The notes beneath the pieces were generated by a model. It saw only the letters and a list, made by a program, of their open reading frames with translations. It was not told the DNA's origin and ran no database searches. Below are positions 5,402 through 53,161 of a stretch of DNA of 64,000 nt, in pieces; the first letter of the stretch is position 1; each line of letters begins with the position of its first letter. The translations under genes were made by a program, and so were the position numbers. The DNA is from SAR116 cluster alpha proteobacterium HIMB100 (GTDB lineage Bacteria > Pseudomonadota > Alphaproteobacteria > Puniceispirillales > Puniceispirillaceae): positions 1-64,000 of the forward strand of contig AFXB01000008.1 of NCBI GenBank assembly GCA_000238815.2. Reading direction: 5' to 3'.

Positions 5402-6931
5402 TCAGTCGGTGAGCAATATCTTGAATTTTTCTCTGATTGCTCTGTCCTTTTCCACCTCCAGATAAGCAGGCTTATAGCTGTCCAAAATTGCTTTAACTTG
5501 TTGATTGGCTCTCTGCCACATTGTTGAACGTCCGTCTTCTGACCAGGTTATTGGCGGGCTGCGATCTGCAAGCAAAGGATAGAAATAGTCCCGTTCCATT
5601 GCTGCCATTGTGTGTTCATGTCCAAGAAAGTGACCTTCCCCGAATATGCTTTGCTTAATCACGTCCAACCCGATGGTCTCGTCATTCACTTCAATACCGC
5701 GCATCGTCCGATAAATGGCACTATGCATTTCATCATCAATCAGAAAGGCTTCGAAAGACGCCCCCAGCAAAGCAGCAGTCATACCTGAACTTTCATAAAT
5801 AAGGTTTCCGCCTGCCAGCGCAGCAGAAAGGGCGGTGAGCCCCTTTTCACTGCCATATTGGGCATCGATAGCTTTTGCATCAGACATTGAACAGGCCACT
5901 CCTGAAGGCAGGCCCAGCGCGTTACTCAGTTGTGCAGATGCCGCATTCAACAAGGCTGTCTCTCCACCGCCACCAGAAAAAGCACCAGTGCGCAAGTCAA
6001 CAACAAACGGCCAATTGGAAAACACCATTGGATAGCCAGGACTGATACAATTCACCATAAGCAAACTGGCAAGGGTCTCTGCCAAGGACTGGGCAAGGAA
6101 GCCCGCCAAGGTTGCTGGTGCCGTAGCACCCGCCTGTGCTGCGGTAATACAGGATACAGGGATATTATGCCGGATACATTCAAACGTGACATCAACTGCA
6201 TCTTCACCAAACCGCATAGGCGAGATAATCGGGCTGATATGTGCTTTTAAGTAAGGGCGCTGTGAAAACGCACCATCACCGCCTTCAGCAAAGTCAAGCA
6301 TCTGAACAATCGGCGTTACATGCTCGGCCAGGGTGAATGAGGTGGCCATTGGCTTTGTTGTTCCGCGCAGCAGCGCATAAACCGTATTCACATCCAAATC
6401 AAAAATATCAGGGACATCAGTCGCGATACAGCATCTGGTGAACCAGCTCACATTTTTCAGCTGATCCTGTATTCTTGTGAAATCATACAGGTCTTGCAAT
6501 GTTGATGGTCGGTAATCACCAGAATATATATCTAATGTCTGAACTGCCGCCCCTCCTGTGCCAAAATGCACACTTTCACCGCCTACTTCGATAGAACGGT
6601 CTGGGTCACGACCGTGAAAGATAAAGCGTTGTGCCGCCTGCGCAATTGTATCCTCTACTAAGAATCGGGCAAAGATAATCCGGCCTTCAGCTGTTTTCTC
6701 TGCACCTTTGGCCAGGAATAGCTTTTCCAGCCTGTCAGGTGTTTCACCCATGCCGACCTCACTCAGCAAGGTGAAGGCGGCATCAATTATTTTTTCAACG
6801 TCACGTTCGGAAAGGGGCCTGTAGCTGCCTCCCGTTATTCCTGGCGGTGCAGGGTTGAAAGATGATATTTTTGAGGTGCGAAGCAAATGCCTTGCTTTGC
6901 GTCCACCAGCCCTGTTTGTATGTGTTGTCAT
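5402..6931 (-). CDS. MttB-family (trimethylamine methyltransferase-like) protein, non-pyrrolysine
   Basis: 509 residues along the full MttB fold, opening with the typical segment YRPLSERDVEKIIDAAF followed by a long TIM barrel. Archaeal MttB uses pyrrolysine at an in-frame UAG. Here the frame is uninterrupted, so this is a non-Pyl member. Characterised non-Pyl relatives such as MtgB demethylate quaternary amines like glycine betaine and pass the methyl group to a corrinoid protein. The substrate here is unknown and no corrinoid protein gene is in the window. The gene is divergent from a GcvT-FAD dehydrogenase gene 157 bases away, and the second MttB-like gene of the window is also next to such a gene, which suggests shared work on methylated amines. 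Start ATG 6931 has no strong ribosome binding site. Confidence 0.8.
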   Translation of the reverse strand: MTTHTNRAGGRKARHLLRTSKISSFNPAPPGITGGSYRPLSERDVEKIIDAAFTLLSEVGMGETPDRLEKLFLAKGAEKTAEGRIIFARFLVEDTIAQAAQRFIFHGRDPDRSIEVGGESVHFGTGGAAVQTLDIYSGDYRPSTLQDLYDFTRIQDQLKNVSWFTRCCIATDVPDIFDLDVNTVYALLRGTTKPMATSFTLAEHVTPIVQMLDFAEGGDGAFSQRPYLKAHISPIISPMRFGEDAVDVTFECIRHNIPVSCITAAQAGATAPATLAGFLAQSLAETLASLLMVNCISPGYPMVFSNWPFVVDLRTGAFSGGGGETALLNAASAQLSNALGLPSGVACSMSDAKAIDAQYGSEKGLTALSAALAGGNLIYESSGMTAALLGASFEAFLIDDEMHSAIYRTMRGIEVNDETIGLDVIKQSIFGEGHFLGHEHTMAAMERDYFYPLLADRSPPITWSEDGRSTMWQRANQQVKAILDSYKPAYLEVEKDRAIREKFKILLTD

Positions 6932-7088
6932 ATCTAAATAAATGTAAAAATCAGTCCCACCTTCTCAAAGCTTCTCTTATTTACCTAACAGGTGCAAATT
7001 TTTTGCGTCAGACCTTCAGCAAAGTTTTGACCCATCGCCTAAAAAGAGGTTCTATTAAGGTGATGAACGGATTGTGAGGGAGGGGGGA

Positions 7089-9512
7089 ATGAAGTCGTCT
7101 GCGCGCGTGGTGGTAATTGGCGGTGGTATTGCTGGATGTTCCACTCTTTATCATTTGACCCGTGAAGGATGGTCAGATGTTGTTCTTGTGGAAAGAGATG
7201 AGCTGACATCTGGAACCACTTGGCATTCTGCTGCTCAGGTTACAAATTTTGGAATGAATCAGACGATGGTAGGGCTGAAAAGCCATTCTATCGCTCTTTA
7301 TAAAGCCCTTGCCGAAGATGATGATTACCCAATTAATTATCACCATGCTGATGGCGGCATCCGGCTGGCAAATACAGAAGCTCAAATGGAAGGCTACCGA
7401 CATTTTGCGTCTATGGCCAAAGGGATGGGCGTTGATTTTGAAGTCATTGACGCTGAAGAATGTCAGCGTCGTCACCCATTGATATCAACCGAAAATCTTG
7501 TTGGGGGGCTATGGGATCCGCTGGATGGTGACATCGATCCAGCCCAATTATGTCAGGCACTTGCCCGCAAGGCTCGTCTGGCAGGTGCAGAAATCTATCG
7601 TCACACACCTGTTACAGCACTGACACAGCGTGATGATGATACATGGTGCGTGCACACCGCTAAGGGCGATATTGACTGCGAGATTGTCGTGAATGCCTGT
7701 GGGTACAGGGTCAATGAGGTTGGTGCGATGATGGGAGTGCATCATCCGGTTATGTCGATGGAGCATCAATATTTTGTCACCGAAACCATAGCTGAAATTG
7801 CACAAGCAGAACATCGTATGCCGTTGCTGCGCTGTCCGATTTCTGATTATTATTGCCGGCAGGAAAAAGATGGCTTGCTGCTGGGGTTTTATGAACAGGA
7901 TTGTAAAACCTGGGGTATGGGCGGAATTGATCCTCATTTTACCAACGCGCTTTGCCCTGATGATCTGGACCGTGTCACAGATGTTCTGGAAGGGGCCTTT
8001 GCGCGTATGCCTGCGCTGACAAGAGCGGGCATTCACACTGTTGTAAACGGGCCGATCACCTACACGATTGACGGTGCGCCGCTGGTTGGTCCTGTTCCCG
8101 GGAAGCGAAATGCTTTTTGTATCATTGGCTTGCGTGCCGGCCTTGGTGAGGGGGGCGGTCATGGCTGGCTTTTGGCGCAACAGATTGTGCATGGGGAAGC
8201 TTGCTATGATACATGGTGTCTCGATCCCCGTCGTTTTTCAGGGCATGGTAATGTTGAATTGACAGCCCTGAAGGCGATCGAAGAATATCAAAATGAATTC
8301 CGGTTTCATTTTCCCCATGAACATCGCCCAGCGGGCCGACCGATAAAGTCGACACCATTAACAGCTGTCCTTGCCGCCGAGGGCGCAGAATTTGGAGTTG
8401 TGAATGGTTGGGAACGTGTGGCCTATATCAAACCATCAGCTGATTTTGTCGAGACTCACAGCTTTCGCTTCACTGAGAGCTTTGACGTTGTTCGCCAAGA
8501 GATAGAGCATCTGCATAATTATGTTGGCCTGACAGAGGTTAACGGATTTAACCGGATTGAGATTTCAGGAACCGGTGTGCATAGCTGGCTTGACCGTTTG
8601 ATTTGTGGTCATGTTCCGCGAAAGAAAGGCCGGGTTGGGTTAGGCTATCTTCTGAATGAACAGGGCAATGTGAAATGTGAGGCAACCCTTGCTAATCTTG
8701 ATGATGGTCGCATCTGGTATGGTTCAGCGGCCGCGTCAGAAATTCATGATTATGAATGGCTCCAGCGTCATCTGCCTGACGATGGTTCTGTTCAGTTACA
8801 CAGCCTGACCAATGATTACACCATCCTGCTCCTTGCCGGACCACAATCAAGGCAGGTTCTGCAGGCCACAACCAGACTTGATTGCTCGCCACAATCTTTC
8901 AAATGGCTTGATGTCAAAACAGCTTTTGTGGGCATTGCGCCAGCAGTTATCATGGCTGTCAGCTATTCAGGAGAAGAGGCATTTGAGATTCATGTGCCCA
9001 ATAATCAGCTTTATGCTGCTTATCTGTCTTTGCGCAAGGCTGGGGAGGCCTTCAGGCTGAAGCTGTTCGGCTCTATGGCTGTTGAATCCATGCGCTTAGA
9101 AAAGGGGTTTTTGCATTGGAAAGCAGATCTGATCACAGAATTTAACCCGGTGGAAACAGGGTTAAGCCGGTTTGTGAATATGAATAAAGATTTTATCGGC
9201 AAAGAGGCCCTCCAGCTGATGATTTCAAAGGGGATGCGTCGGCAGCTGGTGTCTCTGGTGATTGATTGTAGCCATGCTCCCAGCCATGGCGGCGCATCAG
9301 TTTATCATAATGACCAGCTGATCGGCACCGTAACCTCATCAGCATGGGGACACAGAGTAAGTAAAAATATTGCTTTGGCTTTTATCGAACCAGAATATGC
9401 AGCTATTGGCACTTCCTTGGCGGTCGATGTGATGGGTATCAAGACTTCAGCCACAATTGTGCAACCCATTCTGTTTGATCCAGAAAACAGACGCCTGAAG
9501 CCTGATGCATGA
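7089..9512 (+). CDS. GcvT-domain FAD-dependent oxidoreductase (dimethylglycine/sarcosine dehydrogenase-like)
   Basis: 807 residues. The N-terminal FAD-binding (DAO) half starts with VVVIGGGIAG at residues 7-16. The motif TSGTTWH puts a histidine at residue 46, where dimethylglycine and sarcosine dehydrogenases attach FAD covalently. From about residue 430 there is a FAO_M/GcvT-type folate-binding half. The family oxidatively removes an N-methyl group from dimethylglycine or sarcosine and delivers it to tetrahydrofolate. ATG 7089 is preferred over GTG 7074 because a strong purine run (GAGGGAGGGGGG) sits just before it. The stop codon directly abuts the start of the DMSP lyase-like gene, so the two are probably translationally coupled. 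The exact substrate (dimethylglycine, sarcosine or another methylamine) is not decidable from sequence. Confidence 0.85.
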   Translation: MKSSARVVVIGGGIAGCSTLYHLTREGWSDVVLVERDELTSGTTWHSAAQVTNFGMNQTMVGLKSHSIALYKALAEDDDYPINYHHADGGIRLANTEAQMEGYRHFASMAKGMGVDFEVIDAEECQRRHPLISTENLVGGLWDPLDGDIDPAQLCQALARKARLAGAEIYRHTPVTALTQRDDDTWCVHTAKGDIDCEIVVNACGYRVNEVGAMMGVHHPVMSMEHQYFVTETIAEIAQAEHRMPLLRCPISDYYCRQEKDGLLLGFYEQDCKTWGMGGIDPHFTNALCPDDLDRVTDVLEGAFARMPALTRAGIHTVVNGPITYTIDGAPLVGPVPGKRNAFCIIGLRAGLGEGGGHGWLLAQQIVHGEACYDTWCLDPRRFSGHGNVELTALKAIEEYQNEFRFHFPHEHRPAGRPIKSTPLTAVLAAEGAEFGVVNGWERVAYIKPSADFVETHSFRFTESFDVVRQEIEHLHNYVGLTEVNGFNRIEISGTGVHSWLDRLICGHVPRKKGRVGLGYLLNEQGNVKCEATLANLDDGRIWYGSAAASEIHDYEWLQRHLPDDGSVQLHSLTNDYTILLLAGPQSRQVLQATTRLDCSPQSFKWLDVKTAFVGIAPAVIMAVSYSGEEAFEIHVPNNQLYAAYLSLRKAGEAFRLKLFGSMAVESMRLEKGFLHWKADLITEFNPVETGLSRFVNMNKDFIGKEALQLMISKGMRRQLVSLVIDCSHAPSHGGASVYHNDQLIGTVTSSAWGHRVSKNIALAFIEPEYAAIGTSLAVDVMGIKTSATIVQPILFDPENRRLKPDA

Positions 9513-10106
9513 ATGATGAGCAGCGATGATGATTATAACCGGCTCATAGCTGCCGTTCGAAAAGCTTATATTGCATATCCGGCTCTGTCTGACTTCACAC
9601 CTTTGCCAGCAGATTTGCCGAGGCAATCTCTGGTTCCTGAACATCGCGCATGCAGCACATCACTTCAATCAGAAACAGGGCTACAGCCATCTGGCCTGCC
9701 GGACCTGCAAGAACAGATTATTGCATCAGCCCCTTTTATGAAGTGGCGACAGGTCTACACCGATAATCAGAAAAATGCCTTTATGGAGAAGCTGGGCTGT
9801 TATGCGATTGTCGGCGAGGGCGGTCCATTTGCGTCAGACGAGATGCGGTTATTTGTTATCTATATGCCTCGGAATCTTTACTATCCCTGGCATATTCATC
9901 CTGCCGAAGAGCTGTATATGGTTATTTCTGGTGAAGCTGTGTTTAAACGGGAAGGCCATGCAGATAAAGTGCTGTCACAAGGCCAGTCAATGTTTCATGA
10001 GAGCAATCAGCCACATGCGATTGAAACATTTGATACGCCTATGCTCAGCCTTGTCGCCTGGCGGAATCATTTGCATATACCGCCTGTTTTGGTGGATATC
10101 GACTAG
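9513..10106 (+). CDS. dddQ: Cupin DMSP lyase, DddQ type
   Basis: 197 residues, the usual DddQ length. DddQ cleaves dimethylsulfoniopropionate to acrylate and dimethyl sulfide. The cupin motif has Tyr124, His127, His129, Glu133 and Tyr135 in the spacing of the catalytic tyrosines and metal ligands of characterised DddQ and DddK, with His168 as the distal ligand. The surrounding text (KWRQVYT upstream, HAIETFDTPMLSLVAWR downstream) also matches the DMSP lyase family as I remember it. The start ATG follows the previous stop with no gap. A bidirectional terminator follows. Being coupled to a dimethylglycine-dehydrogenase-like gene rather than to acrylate-handling genes is unusual. DddL or an uncharacterised cupin are less likely alternatives. 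Confidence 0.75.
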   Translation: MMSSDDDYNRLIAAVRKAYIAYPALSDFTPLPADLPRQSLVPEHRACSTSLQSETGLQPSGLPDLQEQIIASAPFMKWRQVYTDNQKNAFMEKLGCYAIVGEGGPFASDEMRLFVIYMPRNLYYPWHIHPAEELYMVISGEAVFKREGHADKVLSQGQSMFHESNQPHAIETFDTPMLSLVAWRNHLHIPPVLVDID

Positions 10107-10134: not shown

Positions 10135-10161
10135 AAAACCGCGCTGATAGGGCGCGGTTTT
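10135..10161. terminator. Bidirectional intrinsic terminator
   Basis: AAAACCGCGC (10135-10144) and GCGCGGTTTT (10152-10161) form a perfect ten-pair stem with a seven-base loop. It is flanked by an A-run on the left and a T-rich tract on the right, so it works for both the converging dddQ-like and proX-like genes. Confidence 0.9.
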
Positions 10162-10183: not shown

Positions 10184-11137
10184 TTAGCCGTTAACCCAAC
10201 TATTTACCAAGTCCTGATTTTCAGCAATCCAGTCCGCTGCGACTTCTGCAGGGTCACGCTTATTTTCAAACATTTCCTGAATCCACAAACCGACTTCATC
10301 ACCAGTCAGCTGCATACGGCTCAGCATTGCAGCGACCTTTGGGTTGCGCTCTTCAAGCGAAGCTGAGTAAGCGATATAGACTGAAGCTGCTGTGCCTTCA
10401 CATTCAAATTCAGACACTTCAAGCCAGTTTTCCGCGTCTAGGTCCAACTGCTCACACCCGTCAAAGCGAGCTGGTTCTTTCAGAGCTGTCAGGTCGTACT
10501 GAACATGCAGAGCTTCTGGTGTCCAGTAATAGAACAGCTGAGGCTGTGAAGCGGCATAGGCTGCCGCCAGGCCAGCTTTGAATGTGTCACCTGAAATGAT
10601 GTTTGGCTCCCAAAGACCGTCAAGACCATAAGATTTAAACTTAACCTGCCATCTTTTGGTTGACGCCCAGGTGACATCACCTGCCCAATATTCGCCCAGA
10701 CCGTCACCGTCTGAGTCAAACATGGCTGCGATTTCCGGATTTTTCAGATCTTCAATTGAATTGACTTTGTCTGCTAAATAAGTCGGAACATACAGAAGTG
10801 ATGTGCCAGCATAACCGTTATTGGTTTTCACTGTGCCATTGCCAGTTACATACTGATCCCAAGCAGACTGCCAGTTAGGCATCCACATATCAGGATGAAC
10901 ATCAATAGACCCGTCACCCTTGTCCATGCCGGCAAAGATAACAGGCTGTTGGTTCATGCCTGTTAGAATTTCAGCCTCACCGCCCATTTGACCTGTGATA
11001 ATGGCTTTAATCACATGGCCTACTGCGCGAGCACCGTTCCAGTTCGGGTCAGAGATCATGACCTTTTCCTGAGCGGATACAGCTGTTGCTGAGAACAGCG
11101 CGGCCGCAACGACCGCAGATTTAAGCAGATTTTTCAT
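10184..11137 (-). CDS. proX: Glycine betaine/proline ABC transporter, periplasmic binding protein (ProX/OpuAC)
   Basis: 317 residues with a clear Sec signal peptide (cleavage after AVSA, about residue 22) and the OpuAC fold. Tryptophans and tyrosines typical of the aromatic cage that binds quaternary ammonium ligands recur, for example in DPNWNGARAV, PDMWMPNW and YYWTPEAL. It would capture glycine betaine, proline betaine or possibly DMSP in the periplasm. It is the last gene of a leftward cluster with the permease (34-base gap), the ATPase and a DUF1989-GcvT fusion. The operon is therefore ordered fusion-proV-proW-proX. Ligand specificity is inferred. Confidence 0.88.
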   Translation of the reverse strand: MKNLLKSAVVAAALFSATAVSAQEKVMISDPNWNGARAVGHVIKAIITGQMGGEAEILTGMNQQPVIFAGMDKGDGSIDVHPDMWMPNWQSAWDQYVTGNGTVKTNNGYAGTSLLYVPTYLADKVNSIEDLKNPEIAAMFDSDGDGLGEYWAGDVTWASTKRWQVKFKSYGLDGLWEPNIISGDTFKAGLAAAYAASQPQLFYYWTPEALHVQYDLTALKEPARFDGCEQLDLDAENWLEVSEFECEGTAASVYIAYSASLEERNPKVAAMLSRMQLTGDEVGLWIQEMFENKRDPAEVAADWIAENQDLVNSWVNG

Positions 11138-11171: not shown

Positions 11172-12980
11172 TTAAATTCGACTGAATGATGCCCGTATCC
11201 CTCTTAAGATACGGTCGATCATCATCGCCACAAGGGCAATAGCAATACCGGCAAGTAAACCCTTGCCGGCTTGCGCTTCCCCAAGTGATTCTGTGACTAG
11301 CGCGCCTAGGCCAGCTGCCCCAATAAAGGCAGAGATTGTTGCCATAGACAACGCAAGCATAATGGTTTGATTAAGGCCAGCCATGATGGATGGCAGCGCC
11401 ATAGGCAGCTCAACCTTCCGTAACAGCTGGCGTTCGGATGCACCAAATGCCAGAGCGGCTTCCTTTGTGCTTTCCGGAACCTGCAGGATGCCAAGGGCGG
11501 TCAGCTTCACCATCGGGGGAATAGCGAAAATGACTGTTGCCAGTACCGCCGGCGGCTGAGAGATTCCGAAGAAAGCGACCGCAGGAACCAAATAGCTTAA
11601 TGATGGTATCGTTTGCATAACATCCAGCACAGGCTCTGTTATCCATCTGAACCACTTATTCTTCGCCATCCAAATGCCGGTGGGAAGACCGACAAACACA
11701 CAAATGGCGGTTGCCACCACGACAAGTGCCATAGTCTGCATTGCAATCTGCCAAAGCTCAAACACCGCCAGAAAGGCCAGAGAGCTGGCAACAAATATGA
11801 CAGTGATCCTGTTTGTGTATGCCCAGCTGAGTGCAAGAAACAAAAAGGCAGTGACCGGCCAGGGTGTTTGCATAAACGCAATTTCTACATTGATAAGAGA
11901 CTGGCGCAGAATGTGAGTCATCGCATCAAAAAACCCTGCATATTGTGCGCGCAGATAATTGATGCTTGTGTCGATTGCTTCCGCATTATAGGTGAAAATA
12001 TTCACCCGCCGCCCTTCGATAGGTGCCTTTTGCTGGATCAGGACCTTCGTTGCGTCCAAATCGCCGGCCGCAATCGCCTCTTTGTCTGGTACACGCCGAT
12101 ATCTGACTTCTCCAGGAGGAACAATTCTTGTCAATGTTGGAAAGTCATCAATGAAAGCACAGTCAAAACGGTCCTTTTGACTGATGGCCTGATATTCATT
12201 GACCACATCAACATCGCGATTTGCCTTTCTGGCCTGTTTCCTTAAGGCGCTGCGTTCAGCCTTTTGCTCATTCGTCAACGTCTCCAGGGCGTTTAACCGA
12301 TCAAATTCTGATTGACTTGTCGCCGCTTCTTTTTCCAGTGTCAGCCGAAGAGCATCCAGATCATTTTCATCAAATCTTGTGACCAGATCCTGAATTTTTT
12401 CACCTGCCTTAATCTGGTTCAAACAGGCCCGTCCATCCAATCTCTGCTGACTGGCACGGTAAGTCGTAATCGGCACACAGATAACCATAATTAAAACAGC
12501 AATGGACATACGCTTTGCTGAAATACCGCTGGCAACCGTCTCGATCACGCGCCACCGGTTATATTGATTGTGGTACCATCGGTTCGCTTGATACCCAATC
12601 CACATCCGGCCAGTAAAGAATAATCCCCAACCGGCAAGTGTATAGATTTCAATCCAGTCTGTATAACGCGGGATTAAGGTTGTGTTGGCATCTGGATTTT
12701 GCAGTGCAGCAGCCAGTAAAGGCGTGAATTTCACAACCTGCATCAGGCAAGCTAAAGCAACCACATCAACTGCGAGTGCCAACCAGAACACAAGCCAAAT
12801 ACCGCGCCAGGACGCCCAAAACCAGGGAATGAGCAATGCAAATAGATTGATCCGCCAAACGGGCAATTCATTTCGCTGGATTTTGTCAAACACATCCTCG
12901 TAATAAGGATGATTTTTGCCAACAAATGCCGCTATCGAAATGTCGCGGTCTGCTTTTTCTAACACTGACTGGTCATTCAT
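11172..12980 (-). CDS. proW: Glycine betaine ABC transporter permease (ProW) with long N-terminal extension
   Basis: 602 residues. The C-terminal part (about residues 370-602) is a standard binding-protein-dependent permease with the EAA-type loop, seen as ESTKEAALAFGASERQLLRKV. The first 360 residues are extra. They contain a segment with several hydrophobic helices (INLFALLIPWFWASWRGIW, reminiscent of DUF2628), then a charged, coiled-coil-like stretch around residues 210-290 and a probably periplasmic segment. E. coli ProW is about 350 residues. Such long versions occur in marine alphaproteobacteria as far as I recall, but the role of the extension is not known to me. It overlaps the ATPase gene by four bases. 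Confidence 0.82.
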   Translation of the reverse strand: MNDQSVLEKADRDISIAAFVGKNHPYYEDVFDKIQRNELPVWRINLFALLIPWFWASWRGIWLVFWLALAVDVVALACLMQVVKFTPLLAAALQNPDANTTLIPRYTDWIEIYTLAGWGLFFTGRMWIGYQANRWYHNQYNRWRVIETVASGISAKRMSIAVLIMVICVPITTYRASQQRLDGRACLNQIKAGEKIQDLVTRFDENDLDALRLTLEKEAATSQSEFDRLNALETLTNEQKAERSALRKQARKANRDVDVVNEYQAISQKDRFDCAFIDDFPTLTRIVPPGEVRYRRVPDKEAIAAGDLDATKVLIQQKAPIEGRRVNIFTYNAEAIDTSINYLRAQYAGFFDAMTHILRQSLINVEIAFMQTPWPVTAFLFLALSWAYTNRITVIFVASSLAFLAVFELWQIAMQTMALVVVATAICVFVGLPTGIWMAKNKWFRWITEPVLDVMQTIPSLSYLVPAVAFFGISQPPAVLATVIFAIPPMVKLTALGILQVPESTKEAALAFGASERQLLRKVELPMALPSIMAGLNQTIMLALSMATISAFIGAAGLGALVTESLGEAQAGKGLLAGIAIALVAMMIDRILRGIRASFSRI

Positions 12981-14026
12981 TCTTGGGTTCCTCCCTGGAG
13001 CCCTTTCAGGAGCGTGTCTTTGGTGACAACACCAACTGTTTTACTGTCTGATTTGATAATCACGGGTAGGTCTGTTCCGGTGCTCAGGCCAACAAGCGTG
13101 TCGAGATCATCTTCTGGAGCAGCAACCGGCGCGCCATCAGGAATCGCGCCATTTGCTGCAATATGTTGCTTTGGGTTCACCATGATTTTGGATGCTGTAA
13201 CAAGCTTTAACCTAGAGATGCCCGCGACAAAGTCAGCGACATAATCATCTGCGGGTTCGGTCACAATATCTTCGGCCGTGCCGATCTGAACAATTTCACC
13301 ATCTTTCATGATGCCGATACGGTCTCCCATACGGATAGCCTCATCCAGATCATGGGTGATGAAAACGGTTGTCTTGTTCAATGTGTTTGACAGCGATAAA
13401 AATTCATCCTGAAGGTTCCGCCTGATCAACGGGTCAAGAGCAGAAAAAGGCTCGTCCATCAGAAGAATGTCAGGATCTGCTGCCAGGGCTCTGGCCAGGC
13501 CAACTCGTTGCTGCATCCCTCCGGATAATTCAGAAGGCAGCCTGTCTCCATAGCCATGAAGAGATACGGTCTCAAGTGCCTTCTCAGCTGCCTGGAAACG
13601 GTGATAGCCGTCCATGCCACGCAATTCCAGGGCAAACCCGATATTGTCACGAACAGAACGATGCGGCAGCAACGCCATATTCTGAAAAACCATACCAATC
13701 TTATCAGCACGAATTGCACGCAGCTCATCTTGCTTCATTGCGCCAATATCGTCGCCCATGATGCGAATGTTTCCGGCAGTTGGCTCAATCAGGCGGTTGA
13801 TGTGGCGGACCAAAGTTGATTTTCCTGATCCTGACAAACCCATCAGACAGAAAATTTCACCTTCAGCAACAGTAAAATTGGCATCCTTTACGCCCACAAC
13901 CGCATCATATTTCTCTAACACCTCTGATTTACTGAGGCCGGTGGAGCGAATTTCTGACATAGCCTCTCCAGCTTTATTGCCGAAGATTTTCCACACATTT
14001 TCTACTTCAATAACGGCATCATTCAT
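12977..14026 (-). CDS. proV: Glycine betaine ABC transporter ATP-binding protein (ProV)
   Basis: 349 residues. Walker A is GLSGSGKST, the signature is LSGGMQQRVGLARAL and Walker B is ILLMDEPFSALDP. The N-terminal 50 residues and the C-terminal tail are typical of ProV/OpuAA. The tail holds only one recognisable CBS-like strand set (DLPVIIKSDSKTVGVVTKD), whereas osmoregulated OpuAA has a tandem pair, so gating by ionic strength may be reduced. It overlaps proW by four bases at its 3' end and the DUF1989-GcvT gene by four bases at its 5' end, so translation of the cluster is probably coupled. Confidence 0.88.
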   Translation of the reverse strand: MNDAVIEVENVWKIFGNKAGEAMSEIRSTGLSKSEVLEKYDAVVGVKDANFTVAEGEIFCLMGLSGSGKSTLVRHINRLIEPTAGNIRIMGDDIGAMKQDELRAIRADKIGMVFQNMALLPHRSVRDNIGFALELRGMDGYHRFQAAEKALETVSLHGYGDRLPSELSGGMQQRVGLARALAADPDILLMDEPFSALDPLIRRNLQDEFLSLSNTLNKTTVFITHDLDEAIRMGDRIGIMKDGEIVQIGTAEDIVTEPADDYVADFVAGISRLKLVTASKIMVNPKQHIAANGAIPDGAPVAAPEDDLDTLVGLSTGTDLPVIIKSDSKTVGVVTKDTLLKGLQGGTQE

Positions 14027-16362
14027 GCCCTTGCCCTTTCACGTTTGGGGTCAAAAAATGGAAGGTCAGTTACCTTAGCCAACAGACGCTTCATGCGCCC
14101 GTCAAGTTGCCCCACTTCAAGCTGTTGACCTGTTTCTGCGTGTTCCACAGCCACCCTTGCCATGGCAATAGCACATTCAAATTTTGGAGACCATGTCGCT
14201 GAGGTAATGACGCCTACTTGCTGTTCTCCGGCGTATATTGGGGCGCCATGTTGCGGTGTATCACTGCAGTCAAGTTTCAGTCCCCTTAGCTGTTTTCTCT
14301 GGGCCTCAGCATTTCGCTTCAGCGCATCTTGCCCGATAAAGGCTGTTTTGTTCAGGTTAACGGCAAACCCCAATCCTGCCTCAAATGCATCTGAACCGGC
14401 TGCAAATTCTGCCCTGCTTGCGAAACCAGCCTCAATGCGAAGCATTTCCAGAGCCTCAGATCCCATGGGCACGAGGTTATGTTCGGCGCCTGCCTCCATC
14501 AGCCGATCCCAAATCGACAGCGCATCTCTTTCAGCACAGAACAGCTCATATCCAAGTTCTCCAGTATAGCCGGTCCGTGCCAGCATGAATGGCGGACCTT
14601 CGCGATCATGCAGCCGGGCAACGGTAACGCCAAACCAGTTCATTTGTGCAAGTGATGGGACATTTGGTTGTGTGAAGACGATTTTCTCTAAAATCTGCCG
14701 CGACCGCGGGCCCTGAAGGGCAAGATTGGGCAGTGATGAGCCTAAATCATGGATCCGAACCTGAAGGTTATGCTGATCTGCTAATGCGCTTAGCCATCGC
14801 CCGCTTTGTTCATTGCCACAACACCAGCGAAATAAATGCGGAGCTAACCGGAACAAGGTCCCGTCATCAATGACCTCTCCCATTTCGTTGCAAATCAGCG
14901 CATATGTTCCGCGCCAGACAGCTAATTTCGCAATATCCCTGGTGAGGGCGAGTTGCAATAAATATTTAGCATCAGGACCAATAATATCAAGTTTGCGCAA
15001 ACCGCTCATATCCTGAACAGTAGCGGCGTCTCTGCAGGCCCAATATTCACCGATACTGCCGGTAGCCGGAAATGAGGCCGCTGACCACATATCACGTGCA
15101 GGGGTGAAATGATTTGTCAGCGGTTCAAGCCGAGCATGGAATGCTGAGGGGCGAGTTTTCTGCATAGGCGCATCCTCCGTTACCCGGTAAGCAACTGACT
15201 TAGAAATTGTTGTTTTGTCACTGTAGATGCGCACATGTATGTCTGTTGGATTCCATCCGTTTATCGGGTCAATATCATCTGGACAGGCTGTTGTTACGCA
15301 TAACAGGTTATCTAGCGCCTCCATTACAACATGGTCACCAGGACGCGAGAATGCTTCTTCGGTCAGAATATTATGGTGGTCATCCAGCCATGTATTCCAG
15401 AAGAAATTAATCGCTGGCCAGGCAAGGCGGCGCGATACCCCATAAGGGGCCAGAGCAAAAGAAATATTATCAGAACAGTTTACATGACCAGGAAAGCCAC
15501 GGTCTTCATAGCTGCGGGCTGTACATGCCAGCCCAAACGTATCATGCCGCCCACAAGTGTCCTGAACTACTCTCAGCAGCGGCCGCATATCGGGATCAAA
15601 AAACTTATCAAATAATCCTGGTACAGGATAGGCCCGGCGCACCATCGATCTGGTTGCGGTGCTATCAATCATACTTTCTTCACCACTGTCCAGACCATTC
15701 AAGCGCAGGGCTTGAAAATCAGAACATTGCTGGCCGTCTATATCAATAATCTGTACGGATTCCCCTTGGCGAAGTTCATATGCCTGTGCAGTTCCTCTTT
15801 TTACCGTGAATGCGTCGCGAACATCACCAAGCGGTTCAGGCAGAACCACTGAGCTTTCAGAGCGCTGATGCCAAATATAAGCAGAGCCCACATGTTCACC
15901 TGAAATCAGACCGGCGACAGATTGTACATTGATCAGCCAGATTGTCAGATTGTCGCTTGCTTGAATCACAAACGGTTCATCTGTTTGATGCAGAAAGACC
16001 GCCTTTGTGTGATCAGCCGGGTCAGCACCCTGCGCCTGCAGCCATCCGTGATGGACTTCAAATTCATAACTTTCCGGGTCCAGCCAAGAAGCCTGTCCAA
16101 GGCCCATTACGGCGTCTTTTCGTGAGCCGGTTTTGGTGAAGGCCTGGAGAGCGAGGCTGGCTTGTGAAGAGGCGTTATCTATGCGCAACAAATCGCCAGA
16201 ACGCAGATGAAACTTCACAGCATCCCGTGGCGGCAAAGATATCGGTTGGAGAGCGTTCCTGGAGGGAAATCCAGAAAATAAGCGTCCACCAGACATCTGC
16301 CCGATATTTGTAAAGTCCCTAGTGACGTTCAGACTTAAAATGACGTGTCCCCCCATCACCAT
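14023..16362 (-). CDS. DUF1989-GcvT fusion protein (aminomethyltransferase-like)
   Basis: 779 residues. Residues 1-190 and about 195-400 look like two DUF1989-type (urea-carboxylase-associated, UAAP) halves; the second carries the hallmark RQGESVQIIDIDGQQCSDFQ. The C-terminal 360 residues are a complete GcvT aminomethyltransferase, including the region ARTGYTGELGYELF. GcvT-family enzymes move methyl or methylene groups to tetrahydrofolate. DUF1989 proteins sit near urea and amine catabolism and have no firmly known activity. Being the first gene of the glycine betaine transporter operon, with an ATGA-type overlap, suggests it processes what the transporter imports. The reaction is unknown. 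Confidence 0.72.
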   Translation of the reverse strand: MVMGGHVILSLNVTRDFTNIGQMSGGRLFSGFPSRNALQPISLPPRDAVKFHLRSGDLLRIDNASSQASLALQAFTKTGSRKDAVMGLGQASWLDPESYEFEVHHGWLQAQGADPADHTKAVFLHQTDEPFVIQASDNLTIWLINVQSVAGLISGEHVGSAYIWHQRSESSVVLPEPLGDVRDAFTVKRGTAQAYELRQGESVQIIDIDGQQCSDFQALRLNGLDSGEESMIDSTATRSMVRRAYPVPGLFDKFFDPDMRPLLRVVQDTCGRHDTFGLACTARSYEDRGFPGHVNCSDNISFALAPYGVSRRLAWPAINFFWNTWLDDHHNILTEEAFSRPGDHVVMEALDNLLCVTTACPDDIDPINGWNPTDIHVRIYSDKTTISKSVAYRVTEDAPMQKTRPSAFHARLEPLTNHFTPARDMWSAASFPATGSIGEYWACRDAATVQDMSGLRKLDIIGPDAKYLLQLALTRDIAKLAVWRGTYALICNEMGEVIDDGTLFRLAPHLFRWCCGNEQSGRWLSALADQHNLQVRIHDLGSSLPNLALQGPRSRQILEKIVFTQPNVPSLAQMNWFGVTVARLHDREGPPFMLARTGYTGELGYELFCAERDALSIWDRLMEAGAEHNLVPMGSEALEMLRIEAGFASRAEFAAGSDAFEAGLGFAVNLNKTAFIGQDALKRNAEAQRKQLRGLKLDCSDTPQHGAPIYAGEQQVGVITSATWSPKFECAIAMARVAVEHAETGQQLEVGQLDGRMKRLLAKVTDLPFFDPKRERARA

Positions 16363-23521: not shown

Positions 23522-23750
23522 TGACCTTCCACTTCTAAATCTTTTTCACGCCCTGCAGGCCTAGACTTCAGGCGGGGCGCGCACCACAGGCGAACATTGC
23601 TCGTAAAAGAGTAAAGTGCTTCAGCTTTTCGCACAAGATGCTGTATTCGATTTGGGCTCAACGCCAAATAAATCAACAGACCAGCAAGGGTACGGTCTTG
23701 CTTTGTTTTGTTTCGGAATATATCAAATGAGGACGCGAAAAGGGGCAGAT

Positions 23751-24893
23751 ATGCAAACTTCAGATGAATTTGGTTTTGGTACGCAAATCAGAAAATCACC
23801 ATTTTTTGACGCCACAGTGAAATGGGGGGCCAGCGGCTTTTCTGTTTATAATCATATGTATATTCCCCGTGATTTTGGTGATCCAGAACAGAATTTCTGG
23901 AACCTAATCAATGATGCGATTTTGTGTGATGTGGCTGTTGAACGCCAGGTTGAAGTTGCCGGCCCTGATGCAGCGCAATTCGTTCAGATGCTGACCCCGC
24001 GTGACCTTTCCAATATGGCTGTTGGCCAATGCAAATATATCCTGATTACCAATGCGCAGGGCGGGATCATCAATGATCCGGTGCTTCTGCGGCTTGAACA
24101 GAACAAATTTTGGATTTCACTTGCTGACAGTGATGTTTTGCTTTGGGCACAGGGTGTTGCTGTTCATGCAGGGCTGGATGTAACGATCTGTGAACCAGAT
24201 GTCTCACCTCTTCAACTGCAAGGACCACGCTCGCAGCAAATCATGACAGTATTGTTTGGTGAAGAAATTGAAGGCCTGAAATATTACTGGCTGCGTCACT
24301 ATATGCTGGACGGCATACCGGTGGTGGTCTCCAGGACAGGCTGGTCAAGTGAGCTAGGATATGAAATCTATCTTCAAGATGGCAGCCGGGGGACAGAATT
24401 ATGGGACAAAATTATGGCAGCAGGTCAGCCATTTGGTCTGCAGCCTGGTCATACATCTTCAATTCGGCGCATCGAAGGGGCTATGTTGTCCTATCATGCA
24501 GATATGGATATTCATACAAACCCGTTCGAGCTGGGTCTGGACCGTCTGGTGGCACTGGATGGCCAACATGACTATATCGGGAAACCGGCGCTCCAAAGGA
24601 TTAAACAAAGCGGTGTGAGACGCAGACAGGTCGGGTTGGTCATAGACGGCGCACCATTTACAGGGCCCAACACCAGATTCTGGCCTGTAACAGTTGATGA
24701 CCAGACGATAGGGAAGGTGACATCAGCTGTCTATTCACCACGTCTTAAGAAAAACATTGCTTTGGCTATGATCGAGGTTGGTTCATCTGATCTTGGCACG
24801 GCACTAACCGTGAAGACCGCAACAGGGCTGCGCTCTGCTGTTGTGGTCGAGAAGCCGTTTTATGATCCCAAAAAACAGATCACAACGAGCTAG
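23751..24893 (+). CDS. dmdA: Dimethylsulfoniopropionate demethylase (DmdA)
   Basis: 380 residues, GcvT fold. DmdA transfers a methyl group from DMSP to tetrahydrofolate, giving methylmercaptopropionate. Many segments agree with the SAR11 enzyme as I remember it: GFSVYNHMYIP, ERQVEVAGPDAAQFVQ, TPRDLS, NDPVLL, WISLADSDV, QGPRS, SRTGWSSELGYEIY and IRRIEGAMLSY. Start ATG 23751 has AGGGG seven bases upstream; upstream ATG 23727 and the TTG-rich open frame before it look non-coding. Its stop shares the palindrome CTAG with the converging MBL gene. With the DddQ-type lyase at 9.5 kb, both known fates of DMSP are encoded within 15 kb. A different GcvT-family demethylase is the main alternative. Confidence 0.82.
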   Translation: MQTSDEFGFGTQIRKSPFFDATVKWGASGFSVYNHMYIPRDFGDPEQNFWNLINDAILCDVAVERQVEVAGPDAAQFVQMLTPRDLSNMAVGQCKYILITNAQGGIINDPVLLRLEQNKFWISLADSDVLLWAQGVAVHAGLDVTICEPDVSPLQLQGPRSQQIMTVLFGEEIEGLKYYWLRHYMLDGIPVVVSRTGWSSELGYEIYLQDGSRGTELWDKIMAAGQPFGLQPGHTSSIRRIEGAMLSYHADMDIHTNPFELGLDRLVALDGQHDYIGKPALQRIKQSGVRRRQVGLVIDGAPFTGPNTRFWPVTVDDQTIGKVTSAVYSPRLKKNIALAMIEVGSSDLGTALTVKTATGLRSAVVVEKPFYDPKKQITTS

Positions 24894-41965: not shown

Positions 41966-43231
41966 ATGAAACGCTATTCTGCTTGGCAACTTTTCAAACA
42001 AGGACTGACCGGCCAGACCGGATGGTCACCTGCCTGGCGTCAACCAGACCCGAAACCGGCCTATGATGTGATCATCATTGGCGGCGGCGGGCATGGTTTG
42101 GCTACAGCCTATTATCTGGCAAAAATCCATGGCATCACGAATGTTGCTCTGCTGGAGAAAGGCTGGATTGGTGGCGGCAATTCAGGCCGCAATACCACCA
42201 TTGTGCGGTCGAATTATTTTGTTGAAGGCAACACGGCCTTTTATGAACATTCACTGAAATTATGGGAAGGACTGTCACAAGATCTGAATTATAATGTGAT
42301 GTTCAGCCAGCGCGGCCACCTGAATCTGTTCTTCACGCCCGGTCAGCGTGATGCGTTAATGCGCCGGTATAATATTATGCGCCTGAACGGCATTGATGGC
42401 GAATTCCTGAACCGTGAACAGGTCCAGAAAATGGTCCCGCATTTGAATTATGGGAACCAGGCGCGGCTTCCGATTATGGGCGGGTTTTTGCAGGCAAGGG
42501 CAGGGACTGCGCGTCATGATGCGGTGAACTGGGGCTATGCGCGGGCGGCGTCTGCCTTGGGTGTGGATATCATCCAGAATTGTGAGGTCACAGGCTTTAT
42601 CAAAAAAGCAGGTCGCATAGCCGGTGTTGAAACAAATCGTGGCGAGATTAGAGCCGAGAAAATTGGCATGGCTGTCGCTGGCTCAACCTCTGTTCTGGCG
42701 GGGCTTGCCGGTTTAGGAAAATTGCCAATCGAAAGTCATAAGCTTCAGGCCTTTGTGTCTGAGCCGATTAAACCATTTTTGGATACGGTTGTGGTGTATG
42801 GGGCAGGCCACGGGCATTTTTACATCAGCCAGTCTGATAAGGGCGGCATGGTGTTTGGCGGTAACATTGATGGCTATAATTCTTATGCGCAAAAAGGAAA
42901 TCTCCCAATTTACACAGATGTTGCCAGTTGCGCGATGAATGTAATGCCTGCTCTGGGACGAATTAAGCTGTTGCGTCAATGGGCGGGTATTATGGATATG
43001 TCTATGGATGGCTCGCCCTTTATCACAAAAACAGATATGCCCGGCTTTTACCTGAATGCAGGGTGGTGTTATGGCGGCTTCAAGGCGATCCCGGGCTCAG
43101 GCTGGTGTTTTGCCCATACCATTGCTCATGATCGTCCGCACGAAATCAACAGCCTGCTGACGTTGGATCGATATGCCCATGGGCGCCAGATCGATGAATC
43201 TGGCCATGGGCCCTATCCAAAAGCGCATTAG
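41966..43231 (+). CDS. soxB: Sarcosine oxidase, beta subunit
   Basis: 421 residues. DVIIIGGGGHGLATAYYLAK at about residues 33-52 is the FAD-binding loop, and the GWIGGGNSGRNTTIVRSNY segment after it is specific for heterotetrameric sarcosine oxidase. SoxBDAG oxidises sarcosine to glycine and, with folate, forms methylene-tetrahydrofolate plus H2O2. SoxB carries the sarcosine-oxidising site. It is the first gene of the canonical B-D-A-G order and is followed by soxD after 22 bases. The leader contains a hairpin. Confidence 0.93.
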   Translation: MKRYSAWQLFKQGLTGQTGWSPAWRQPDPKPAYDVIIIGGGGHGLATAYYLAKIHGITNVALLEKGWIGGGNSGRNTTIVRSNYFVEGNTAFYEHSLKLWEGLSQDLNYNVMFSQRGHLNLFFTPGQRDALMRRYNIMRLNGIDGEFLNREQVQKMVPHLNYGNQARLPIMGGFLQARAGTARHDAVNWGYARAASALGVDIIQNCEVTGFIKKAGRIAGVETNRGEIRAEKIGMAVAGSTSVLAGLAGLGKLPIESHKLQAFVSEPIKPFLDTVVVYGAGHGHFYISQSDKGGMVFGGNIDGYNSYAQKGNLPIYTDVASCAMNVMPALGRIKLLRQWAGIMDMSMDGSPFITKTDMPGFYLNAGWCYGGFKAIPGSGWCFAHTIAHDRPHEINSLLTLDRYAHGRQIDESGHGPYPKAH

Positions 43232-43253
43232 AACAGATGAGGGGAGGCCAGAA

Positions 43254-43577
43254 ATGCTGAGACTTGACTGTCCGTTTTGCGGTCTGCGCGACCATGATGA
43301 ATTCAGCTATCTTGAAGATGGCAGCGTGACGATGCCTGCTGTTACAGACACATCTGAACAGGCCTGGTTTGAAGCAGTGTTTTTGCGTGATAATCCGCGT
43401 GGTAAGCATGTTGAACTGTGGCACCATGTGAATGGTTGCCGTATGGTTCTGCGGGTTGAACGCGACACCCAGACACATCTCATCAGCAAGGTAGAAGCAG
43501 CACATCCGGCTTGGCGGGATATGGCGGGGCAGGCGGCAAAGCCTGCGCGCAAATCAAAGACAAAGGCGACAAGATGA
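43254..43577 (+). CDS. soxD: Sarcosine oxidase, delta subunit
   Basis: 107 residues from ATG 43254, preceded by GGGGAGG. The N-terminal LDCPFCGLRDHDEF has the Cys pair, and with the later HVNGC segment it forms the zinc site of SoxD. The small subunit seals the complex between the folate and flavin sites. It ends in a basic tail and overlaps soxA by four bases (ATGA). The longer frame to 43173 lies within the soxB end and is not used. Confidence 0.92.
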   Translation: MLRLDCPFCGLRDHDEFSYLEDGSVTMPAVTDTSEQAWFEAVFLRDNPRGKHVELWHHVNGCRMVLRVERDTQTHLISKVEAAHPAWRDMAGQAAKPARKSKTKATR

Positions 43578-50707: not shown

Positions 50708-53161
50708 ATGGCGGATGATGAGGGAACTATGAAAACACAAGCACAAGTGGTTGTAATTGGCGGCGGCGTAGTGGGTGCGTCTGTCCTGTACCATCTCACC
50801 AAGTTAGGCTGCACAGATGTAATGTTGCTGGAACGGTCGGATTTGACATCTGGGTCAACCTGGCATGCGGCTGGTGGCATGCACACTATTAATGGTGACC
50901 CGAATGTGGCCAAGCTTCAGCAATATACCATCAGCTTATATAAAGAGATTGAAGAGCTGTCTGGCCAGGATATTGGTCTTCACATGACCGGCGGGGTCAT
51001 GCTGGCAGCAACCCAGGAACGGTTTGACTGGCTGAAAGGGGTCTATGCCAAAGGGAAATATCTGGGCATGGATGAGCTGGAGATCATCACGCCGGAACGC
51101 GCAGCTGAATTAATGCCGCTTCTTGACCCGTCACAGTTTGTAGGCGCGCTTTATGACCCGATTGAGGGGCATTGTGATCCCTATGGCGTTACGCACGCCT
51201 ATGCAAAGGCAGCCCGCAAAAATGGGGCTGTTGTGGAAACCCAGACAAAAGTTGAAGCCCTGTCCCAAATCGCTGATGGGACGTGGTATATCAAAACCAA
51301 TAAGGGTGATATCAGGGCTGAACATGTGGTCAATGCCGGCGGCTTATGGGCGCGTGAGGTCGGCCGTATGGTTGGGCTGGAACTGCCTGTTCTGGCGATG
51401 GAGCATATGTATCTGCTGACCGAAGATATGCCAGAGGTCAAAGAATTTAATGATAAGACCGGCATTGAAATGCTGCATGCTGTTGATTTTGACGGAGAAT
51501 TATATCTGCGCCAGGAACGTGGCGGTATGCTTATGGGTACCTATGAGAAAGCCTGTCGGCCGTGGTCTGAACATGATACGCCTTGGTCATTCGGCCATGA
51601 ATTGCTGGAACCTGATATTGACCGTATCGCGCCGTCATTAGAGGTTGGATTTGAACATTTCCCGGCTTTCCAGAACGCCGGTATACGCCGTGTCATTAAT
51701 GGCCCGTTCACATTTGCCCCGGACGGTAACCCGCTTGTAGGACCTATAAAGGGGATGACCAATTACTGGTCGGCTTGCGCGGTGATGGCCGGCTTCTCTC
51801 AGGGGGGTGGTGTTGGGCTTGCTTTGGCGAACTGGATCGTGAATGGCGATCCGGGTTTTGATGTTTGGGCAATGGACGTCAGCCGGTTTGGCGACTATGC
51901 CACTATGGCCTATACAAACGCCAAGGTTCGGGAAAATTATTCCCGCCGCTTTTCCATCCGCTATCCAAATGAAGAGCTGACAGCGGCCCGCCCTCTGGCC
52001 ACCACGCCAATCTATGACAAGCTGGCTGCTGCCGGAGCCCAGTTTGGGGCGTCATTTGGTCTTGAAATGCCTCTGTGGTTTGCCCCGGAAGGTGTGCGCG
52101 ATGAATTTTCATGGCGCCGCTCAACTGACTTTGAACATGTCGCGGCAGAGGTTGCAATTGTCAGAGATTCGGTCGGGCTTTCAGATATTTCAAACTTTGC
52201 CAAATACCGGGTCACTGGCCCGGGCGTAACCGCTTGGCTTGACCAGATGCTGGCCTGTTCTCTGCCGCGCGCAGGCCGGATGACGCTGGCCCCGATGCTG
52301 AAAGAAGATGGCCGCGTTATTGGTGATTTTTCTGTCGCGTGTCTCAATGAAGACTCATATCTATTGGTTGGCTCTGGCTTAGCTGAAGATTATCATATGC
52401 GTTGGTTCCTTTCACATTTGCCTGATGATGGTTCGGTGGCTGTGACTTCCGAAGGGCTGGGTTTATGCGGCCTTACAATCGCCGGGCCGAATGCGCGTGC
52501 GGTTCTGGCCAGCCTGACCCGGACAGATGTCAGTCATGATGCGTTCAAATTTATGGCTGTGAAACAGATGGATATTGGTATGGTGCCTGCCCTTGTTGGC
52601 CGGGTCAGTTACACAGGTGATCTGGGGTACGAGATTTGGGTAAAACCACAATATCAGCGGCGTTTATTTGACGATTTGATGGCTGCCGGGGCAGCGCATA
52701 ATATCGGCCTGTTTGGCAGCCGGGCGTTAAATGCGCTGCGGCTGGAAAAAAATTACGGCAGTTGGGGCCGCGAATTCCGGCCGATTTACTATCCGAATGA
52801 AACAGGTCTTGACCGGTTTTGTGCCTTTGACAAATCAGCTGATTTCATTGGCAAGTCTGAAGCGGCAGAAATTGCAGCAGAAAATGGGGGCGATTATCGG
52901 CTGCGTTGCTTCGTTGTTCAGGCAAATGATGCTGATGTGATCGGGGATGAGCCTATCTTCCATAATGGTGAGGTTGCAGGATGGGTAACCTCAGGCGGTT
53001 ATGCGCATGGCTCTGATGTCTCTGTGGCTATGGGGTATGTCCGCACAGAACTGGCTGAACAAGATGAAGGTTGGTCTGTTGAACTGCTGGCCGAAACGCT
53101 GTCTGCACGTATGCAAAAACAGCCTTTGTTTGACAGTAACGCCAGCCGGATGCGCAGCTAA
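50708..53161 (+). CDS. GcvT-domain FAD-dependent oxidoreductase (dimethylglycine/sarcosine dehydrogenase-like), second copy
   Basis: 817 residues from ATG 50708 (AAGG seven bases upstream). ATG 50729 would put the flavin-binding histidine of TSGSTWH at residue 46, exactly as in the paralogue at 7089-9512, and also has GAGGG before it. The FAD loop is VVVIGGGVVGASVLYHL, and the C-terminal half (from about residue 430) is GcvT-like with SYTGDLGYEIW. It probably oxidises an N-methyl group of dimethylglycine or sarcosine into folate. It is probably co-transcribed with the MttB-like gene before it. It converges with the dehydratase gene eight bases away. Confidence 0.86.
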   Translation: MADDEGTMKTQAQVVVIGGGVVGASVLYHLTKLGCTDVMLLERSDLTSGSTWHAAGGMHTINGDPNVAKLQQYTISLYKEIEELSGQDIGLHMTGGVMLAATQERFDWLKGVYAKGKYLGMDELEIITPERAAELMPLLDPSQFVGALYDPIEGHCDPYGVTHAYAKAARKNGAVVETQTKVEALSQIADGTWYIKTNKGDIRAEHVVNAGGLWAREVGRMVGLELPVLAMEHMYLLTEDMPEVKEFNDKTGIEMLHAVDFDGELYLRQERGGMLMGTYEKACRPWSEHDTPWSFGHELLEPDIDRIAPSLEVGFEHFPAFQNAGIRRVINGPFTFAPDGNPLVGPIKGMTNYWSACAVMAGFSQGGGVGLALANWIVNGDPGFDVWAMDVSRFGDYATMAYTNAKVRENYSRRFSIRYPNEELTAARPLATTPIYDKLAAAGAQFGASFGLEMPLWFAPEGVRDEFSWRRSTDFEHVAAEVAIVRDSVGLSDISNFAKYRVTGPGVTAWLDQMLACSLPRAGRMTLAPMLKEDGRVIGDFSVACLNEDSYLLVGSGLAEDYHMRWFLSHLPDDGSVAVTSEGLGLCGLTIAGPNARAVLASLTRTDVSHDAFKFMAVKQMDIGMVPALVGRVSYTGDLGYEIWVKPQYQRRLFDDLMAAGAAHNIGLFGSRALNALRLEKNYGSWGREFRPIYYPNETGLDRFCAFDKSADFIGKSEAAEIAAENGGDYRLRCFVVQANDADVIGDEPIFHNGEVAGWVTSGGYAHGSDVSVAMGYVRTELAEQDEGWSVELLAETLSARMQKQPLFDSNASRMRS

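Follow-up and report, generated by a model that had tools for sequence, protein, structure and literature searches.

The 64,000-nucleotide stretch of the SAR116 bacterium HIMB100 analyzed here (contig AFXB01000008.1, positions 1 to 64,000; hereafter the window) carries four compact minus-strand genes, headed by one whose 779-residue product fuses a DUF1989 domain to a GcvT-type folate-binding domain and followed by the genes of a ProXWV-type ATP-binding cassette (ABC) importer. On balance, we lean towards reading the fusion protein as a demethylase of the trimethylamine N-oxide (TMAO) demethylase (Tdm) type that belongs to a separate clade, here called TdmB, and serves an imported methylated solute other than TMAO. 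The architecture is known from Tdm; what is new is a separate, uncharacterized clade with its own importer, on which a search of open-licence articles in PMC found no publication. Tree placement, gene neighbours, genome-wide co-occurrence and predicted binding-pocket residues point away from TMAO, making another substrate the better bet, not a result. The locus comprises the following elements.

14023..16362, minus strand: tdmB-like gene encoding an N-terminal domain, DUF1989, GCV_T and GCV_T_C (779 aa; open reading frame (ORF), Pfam, NCBIfam, tree).
15301..15807, minus strand: DUF1989 domain, residues 186-354 (Pfam PF09347, 141.2 bits against a cutoff of 27; fold match of the model to 3oru/3siy).
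15274..15720, minus strand: span holding the putative metal-site residues D215, C280, H293, C296, C360 and D363 (alignment of clades A and B).
14362..15138, minus strand: GCV_T folate-binding domain, residues 409-667 (Pfam PF01571, 182 bits, well above cutoff).
14050..14295, minus strand: GCV_T_C barrel domain, residues 690-771 (Pfam PF08669, 69.9 bits, well above cutoff).
12977..14026, minus strand: ProV/ChoV-type ABC ATPase, in a 4-base ATGA overlap with the fusion gene (Pfam, NCBIfam; relatives adjoining clade-B genes are 55-85% identical).
11172..12980, minus strand: ABC permease, 602 aa, with BPD_transp_1 in its C-terminal part, overlapping the ATPase gene by 4 bases (Pfam, NCBIfam).
10184..11137, minus strand: OpuAC-type substrate-binding protein, 317 aa, 34 bases after the permease gene, with W33, W85, W157 and W205 and a non-acidic residue at the place of TmoX Glu131 (Pfam, PDB search, alignment).

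The original prediction, made from the letters alone, had named a DUF1989-GcvT fusion at 14023-16362, coupled to a proV-like gene by an ATGA overlap. ORF and Pfam analysis bore out both points and added the strand: the plus-strand translation of these coordinates is riddled with stops, and the ATPase gene begins within the stop of the minus-strand fusion gene. Since the four genes share a strand and are very compact, a single transcript is likely. The protein had been described as two DUF1989-like halves joined to a complete GcvT domain. The GcvT domain stands, but only one DUF1989 is recognized by sequence, and a 151-residue query from the N-terminal part gave no convincing PDB match. Two halves are still plausible, because the N-terminal domain of Methylocella silvestris Tdm, which precedes DUF1989 and GCV_T, was modelled by AlphaFold as DUF1989-like (PMC12560246, excerpts). 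Our own predicted structure has a beta-rich N-terminal domain, a part barely compared with known folds, and a DUF1989 part resembling 3oru/3siy (Z 19, 183-185 residues aligned, root-mean-square deviation about 3). The mean predicted local distance difference test (pLDDT) was 66.6 (poor) for a model from a 7-row alignment and 83.1 with 60 rows; the solved Tdm, 9q59, was absent among the structure matches shown.

By sequence, the closest characterized relative of the fusion protein is Tdm. Its top-scoring PDB entry is TMAO demethylase 9q59/9q5a (615 bits, residues 167-778), and in NCBIfam the TMAO demethylase model scores highest (1017.7 bits). The idea of an undescribed DUF1989-GcvT fusion, put forward in the original prediction, was rejected because the layout is that of Tdm (PDB, NCBIfam and excerpts of PMC12560246), and the premise that DUF1989 has no firm activity was also wrong, Tdm and carboxyguanidine deiminase being examples to the contrary. 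With Tdm of M. silvestris and Ruegeria pomeroyi the window protein shares DUF1989, GCV_T, GCV_T_C and the metal-site residues, at about 40% identity overall and 53% within DUF1989. It differs in its separate clade, its other importer, the absence of a link to Tmm or DmmA, and a score below the curated equivalog cutoff of 1100 bits, a model on which clade-A genes reach 1181-1243 bits. Three tested features (cutoff, clade and genomic links) thus went against the name TMAO demethylase, which we withhold from a protein that probably works like one. The DMSP (dimethylsulfoniopropionate) demethylase DmdA, dimethylglycine dehydrogenase (DMGDH) and GcvT share the GCV_T fold of its C-terminal half but have no DUF1989 and different partner domains. 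The entry 9q59 is itself probably the tagged M. silvestris enzyme: a 22-residue numbering offset fits C263, H276, C279, C343, F487 and L618, with one misfit at A344 (PMC12560246, excerpts), which would be proline in 9q59.

In M. silvestris Tdm, Zn is bound at C263/C279/C343, and H276/D346 are proposed Fe ligands (PMC12560246, excerpts). The residues D198/C263/H276/C279/C343/D346 correspond to D215/C280/H293/C296/C360/D363 in the window protein and are identical throughout the 22 clade-A and 64 clade-B rows, save for one D-to-E exchange at the last position. The same six are also found in 3oru, a stand-alone DUF1989 protein of unknown function; they are not Tdm-specific, and their conservation is therefore no proof of TMAO as substrate, but the likeness between the clades favours chemistry of one kind. 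An improbable alternative is that DUF1989 hydrolyses a C-N bond of an imported guanidino or related compound and that GcvT acts on the product, in the manner of the UAAP1/2 DUF1989 proteins, which we take to be carboxyguanidine deiminases. These have the DUF1989 domain in common with the window protein, the residues shared with 3oru are alone no sign of demethylation, and two urea-amidolyase-associated DUF1989 families (TIGR03424 and TIGR03425) match weakly, at 82.5 and 50.4 bits. However, those scores are far under the respective cutoffs of 284.7 and 206, similarity to Tdm is far higher, and to our knowledge UAAP1/2 proteins have no GcvT domain. The tetrahydrofolate (THF) step is uncertain for Tdm and the window protein alike, because THF-binding residues of Escherichia coli GcvT are replaced: M. 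silvestris Tdm is described as being without two of them, with L618 and F487 in their places (PMC12560246, excerpts), where the window protein has Ser and Phe.

An 88-row tree (a quick tree without bootstrap) separated two clades, each with a Shimodaira-Hasegawa-like approximate likelihood ratio (SH-aLRT) value of 100. Clade A (22 rows) contains 9q59 and all Tmm-linked genes, clade B (64 rows) contains the window gene, and two rows, the long-branched L047 and L108, lie outside both. The split was retained in a second quick tree, again without bootstrap, with references from Roseobacter, Rhizobium and Paracoccus: plasmid genes of Rhizobium etli (near dimethylamine-monooxygenase genes) and Ruegeria conchae (near a glnT gene and an ABC importer) joined clade A, and a plasmid gene of Paracoccus seriniphilus, heading a LacI-tdm-X-V-W cluster (X, binding protein; V, ATPase; W, permease), joined clade B. 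The named-genome loci used for the tree and the counts were the best 80 of 586 by similarity and are enriched for clade B. Long matches turned up in 7 of the 136 genomes of the window's order: the window genome, G122 (66% identity) and five at 45-47%. The window and G122, the sole clade-B members found there, have a different importer beside the fusion gene and no Tmm; among the five, a Tmm gene and a TmoXWV-like importer adjoin the relative in G022, G003 and G135, and the available stretch of G072 and G125 shows neither. Sampling 385 genomes across the class gave 34 with a family member at E 1e-150 or better. Of the 33 besides the window, 29 had loci available for inspection; each of the 29 came closest to clade A, and 21 had Tmm (11) or a TmoW/TmoX-like gene (10) no more than about 1.5 kb away. 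Clade B therefore looks rare outside the groups covered by the named-genome scan, in which it is carried by named Ruegeria, Leisingera, Roseibium and Paracoccus strains. Of the two rows outside both clades, L047 (1418-3715, minus strand) reads SATGYTGQ where the compared relatives read RTGYTGE, and L108 (7902-10295, plus strand) has a V-W-X importer directly upstream.

Gene neighbourhoods were counted for 63 clade-B loci, the window excluded, with flanks reaching about 8 kb per side at most; 44 loci had 7 kb or more on both. ProXWV-type importer genes lie downstream on the same strand in 53/63 (including L082, where two other ORFs intervene), with 31 in complete X-V-W order, 12 in V-W-X order as in the window, and 10 partly recognized or cut by a contig end. 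Elsewhere, genes of tripartite ATP-independent periplasmic (TRAP) importers stand directly upstream (L101, with DctP, DctQ and DctM by Pfam, and L099, where DctM was tested) or divergent from the clade-B gene (L092), and L102 has a V-W-X set upstream. Importer type switches at least 8 times on the 88-row tree (57 rows typed by hand), and this repeated exchange suggests that the clade-B protein most likely acts on an imported solute. Thus, the original prediction was right in outline to tie a demethylase-like fusion to a betaine-type importer, and the pattern named as its refutation, a fusion found widely beside unrelated genes such as urea carboxylase and never with betaine transporters, did not appear (urea carboxylase beside the fusion was not searched for). 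The glycine betaine specificity that it assigned to the transporter found no support in any test here.

The two clades also differ in their other neighbours. Tmm genes occur in 0/63 clade-B loci versus 13/21 clade-A loci, and those of G022, G135 and one further clade-A locus all scored above the NCBIfam trimethylamine monooxygenase cutoff (3/3 tested). A LacI-type gene cluster was present in 49/65 non-clade-A loci versus 0/21 clade-A loci, with 44 of 52 copies directly upstream and divergent; its identity comes from Pfam on one representative (L072) and the annotation of one plasmid record. Searching the fetched flanks for Dmm, GmaS and folate genes told little: Dmm genes had no match in either clade, GmaS matches came from six clade-A loci at only 30-37% identity, and FolD-like genes from one clade-A and five clade-B loci.

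These patterns bear on the chief rival explanation, a divergent TMAO demethylase, which we regard as possible but unlikely. Here, the ABC system would import external TMAO and the enzyme would yield dimethylamine and formaldehyde, the C1 unit being kept and the amine lost or used otherwise. The deep separation of clade B and the lack of Tmm at its loci argue against it, as does genome content. We compared 42 hand-chosen genomes (40 via named-genome loci, the window genome G000, and G122), 41 of them with clade B and one (G174, carrying L108) with a member of neither clade. Clade-A Tdm, defined as a match of 1181 bits or more, was present in 14; the second tree included the genes of 11 of these, every one falling in clade A, but not L134, L136 or L137. 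These 14 genomes hold genes of both clades, a further point against the rival. Tmm was found in 10/14 genomes with clade-A Tdm versus 0/28 without (Fisher p 7e-7), PF11927 matches above 220 bits in 11/14 versus 0/28 (p 9e-8), and GmaS over its cutoff in 13/14 versus 8/28 (p 2e-4), all tests being uncorrected for relatedness. Among the 11 strong PF11927 genes, six were inspected, and 6/6 were 66-69% identical to R. etli DmmA and adjoined DmmB-/DmmC-like genes. Many of the 42 genomes, most of them without a strong DmmA-type gene, have weaker PF11927 matches (about 74-188 bits); that of the window genome (G000:C6:75980-76582, L009) scored 163 bits, with 28% identity to R. etli DmmA over 177 residues. 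Profile searches of the window genome gave no match to the flavin-containing monooxygenase family or Tmm and no GmaS above cutoff, the match found resembling glnA by eye. Were dimethylamine the product of clade B acting on TMAO, most of these genomes would be left with no known route for using it, since the 28 without clade-A Tdm have neither Tmm nor a strong DmmA-type gene and 20 of them also lack GmaS above cutoff.

The binding proteins point in the same direction. In TmoX, Glu131 bonds the TMAO oxygen and four Trp residues form a box (PMC8918994, excerpts); in DmpX, Thr64, Ala153, Glu113 and Tyr200 bind DMSP within a Trp cage (PMC10030565, excerpts). The window binding protein matches RnDmpX 7yle, of the DMSP importer DmpXWV, best among PDB entries, at 55.5 bits, and Ruegeria TmoX 4xz6 at 38 bits. 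We aligned 52 binding proteins, namely the window's and those of 51 loci, L108 among them. The TmoX Glu131 column holds Glu in 10/10 clade-A-linked proteins and Ser, Gln, Ala or Thr in 52/52 others (Ser113 in the window), which disfavours TMAO as their ligand. Asn62 is present in 48/52 and W33, W85, W157 and Y203 in 52/52; the 36 X-V-W-type proteins have Tyr in place of the fourth Trp, which is W205 in the window protein. With no more than 36-41% identity to the latter, full-length X-V-W proteins nevertheless share these pocket features, so both types probably take the same ligand, which probably has a methylated cationic head held unlike TMAO or DMSP. Relative to RnDmpX, the places of W35, W84, W152, Ala153, Tyr200 and W202 are kept in the window protein, but Glu113 is Ser113, Thr64 is Asn62 and overall similarity is weak. 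TmoXWV is likewise a ProXWV-type system adjoining a Tdm-family gene and has the pocket Trp residues in common with the window's importer, which differs in the replaced Glu131, its weak score and the length of its permease (602 aa versus 650-686 aa in three clade-A loci). Carboxylates are the usual ligands of TRAP binding proteins. The replacement of the ABC importer by a TRAP importer in some relatives fits poorly with TMAO and underlies our guess of a zwitterionic substrate with a carboxylate-like group. Given the tree, neighbours, importer and binding-protein residues, an ordinary Tdm beside TmoXWV was rejected as first choice.

We hypothesize that the ABC system imports a small methylated solute, that the DUF1989 site (Zn/Fe in Tdm) would release one methyl as formaldehyde by redox-neutral, Tdm-like chemistry with no outside oxidant, and that the GcvT domain would hand the carbon to tetrahydrofolate. 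Less certain is the nature of the solute, which would be not TMAO but a methylated compound, probably with a carboxylate or similar group. In the boldest reading, TdmB and its importer would form a self-contained, often re-paired uptake and demethylation cassette for an abundant marine methylated zwitterion besides TMAO; its general claim, a substrate other than TMAO, seems to us only slightly better than an even bet.

Several observations weigh against a substrate other than TMAO and lend the divergent TMAO demethylase its support, beyond the kinship with Tdm and the conserved metal site. Two clade-B proteins (Labrenzia/Roseibium) exceed the NCBIfam Tdm cutoff, at 1125 and 1122 bits. Fifteen DUF1989 positions are common to clades A and B and differ in 3oru (two further shared positions fall outside the compared 3oru stretch), and only four DUF1989 positions differ systematically between the clades (A162G, R194Q, Y273F and A350I in M. 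silvestris numbering), next to 14 in the GcvT part. The active sites may therefore be much alike, and TMAO could be the clade-B substrate. ProXWV-type importers do carry TMAO, TmoXWV being one, and in SAR11 TmoX some of the Ruegeria pocket residues are dispensable, with Glu114 required (PMC8918994, excerpts). SAR11 uses TMAO without DmmDABC, though with GmaS (PMC5520151 and PMC8918994, excerpts), and GmaS is carried by eight of the 28 genomes without clade-A Tdm. As for the neighbourhoods, in 19/63 clade-B loci at least one flank is shorter than 7 kb, so that absences there are weak; six of the 63 have no recognized importer, and the window and G122 have no LacI-type gene at the usual place.

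A TdmB clade acting on another solute would matter for how such genes are counted. In the one annotated clade-B record examined, the product is named "aminomethyltransferase family protein". A published survey of Tdm genes used a cutoff of e-50 (PMC5520151, excerpts); with such a threshold, clade-B genes would presumably be tallied as TMAO demethylases. Should the clade-B substrate be a different compound, surveys of this kind overestimate the use of TMAO, and a widespread pairing of importer and demethylase for a different ocean solute could be tested directly in the named strains carrying clade B.

Among candidate substrates fitting Tdm chemistry, dimethylsulfoxonium propionate (DMSOP) is one, albeit a long shot. 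TMAO is an isomer of dimethylamine plus formaldehyde, and DMSOP is an isomer of methylmercaptopropionate plus formaldehyde; an internal redox reaction like that of Tdm would thus feed both the folate pool and the known route of DMSP demethylation. Demethylation of DMSOP by DmdA has been raised in print as a question still to be answered (PMC10686828, excerpts). For other methylated solutes, N-methylglutamate dehydrogenase takes part in the homarine pathway (PMC13390433, excerpts), and a methyltransferase system for glycine betaine is described in Ruegeria pomeroyi, with no DUF1989 protein named in the abstract (PMC12478193). Two features lie beyond the end of the four genes.

10135..10161, no strand assigned: terminator-like hairpin separating the operon end from the convergent cupin gene (from a consensus scan alone, which gives it on the plus strand).
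9513..10106, plus strand: DMSP_lyase-family cupin, a convergent neighbour and possible member of the system (Pfam PF16867, 68.6 bits).

The hairpin scan found 11 candidates against 7.0 expected; a promoter scan was uninformative (5 found versus 8.6 expected). The cupin could be a DMSP/DMSOP lyase, and a relative with 57% identity adjoins the cassette at the same place in G122 (L042, 10974-11666).

The surroundings of the operon are rich in predicted methylated-amine genes. An MTTB-family protein (PF06253, 357 bits) is encoded at 5402-6931 on the minus strand by a single uninterrupted ORF. On the plus strand lie a flavin adenine dinucleotide (FAD; DAO) plus GCV_T protein of the dimethylglycine-dehydrogenase type (7074-9512), a DmdA-like GcvT-family protein (23616-24893; 378.9 bits against a DMSP demethylase cutoff of 410), and, at 41966-46537 and 50708-53161, sarcosine-oxidase-like genes and a second FAD plus GCV_T protein. 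Searched with the Tdm model, the window genome gives 12 matches, 11 of which involve the GcvT part alone. Outside this genome, in the stretch 5227-11515 of L090 (a Planktomarina metagenome-assembled genome), the clade-B gene is flanked by a gene pair for an ILVD_EDD dehydratase and an FAA-hydrolase; no importer was recognized at this locus, and its other flank carries a kynureninase-like gene, identified by eye only.

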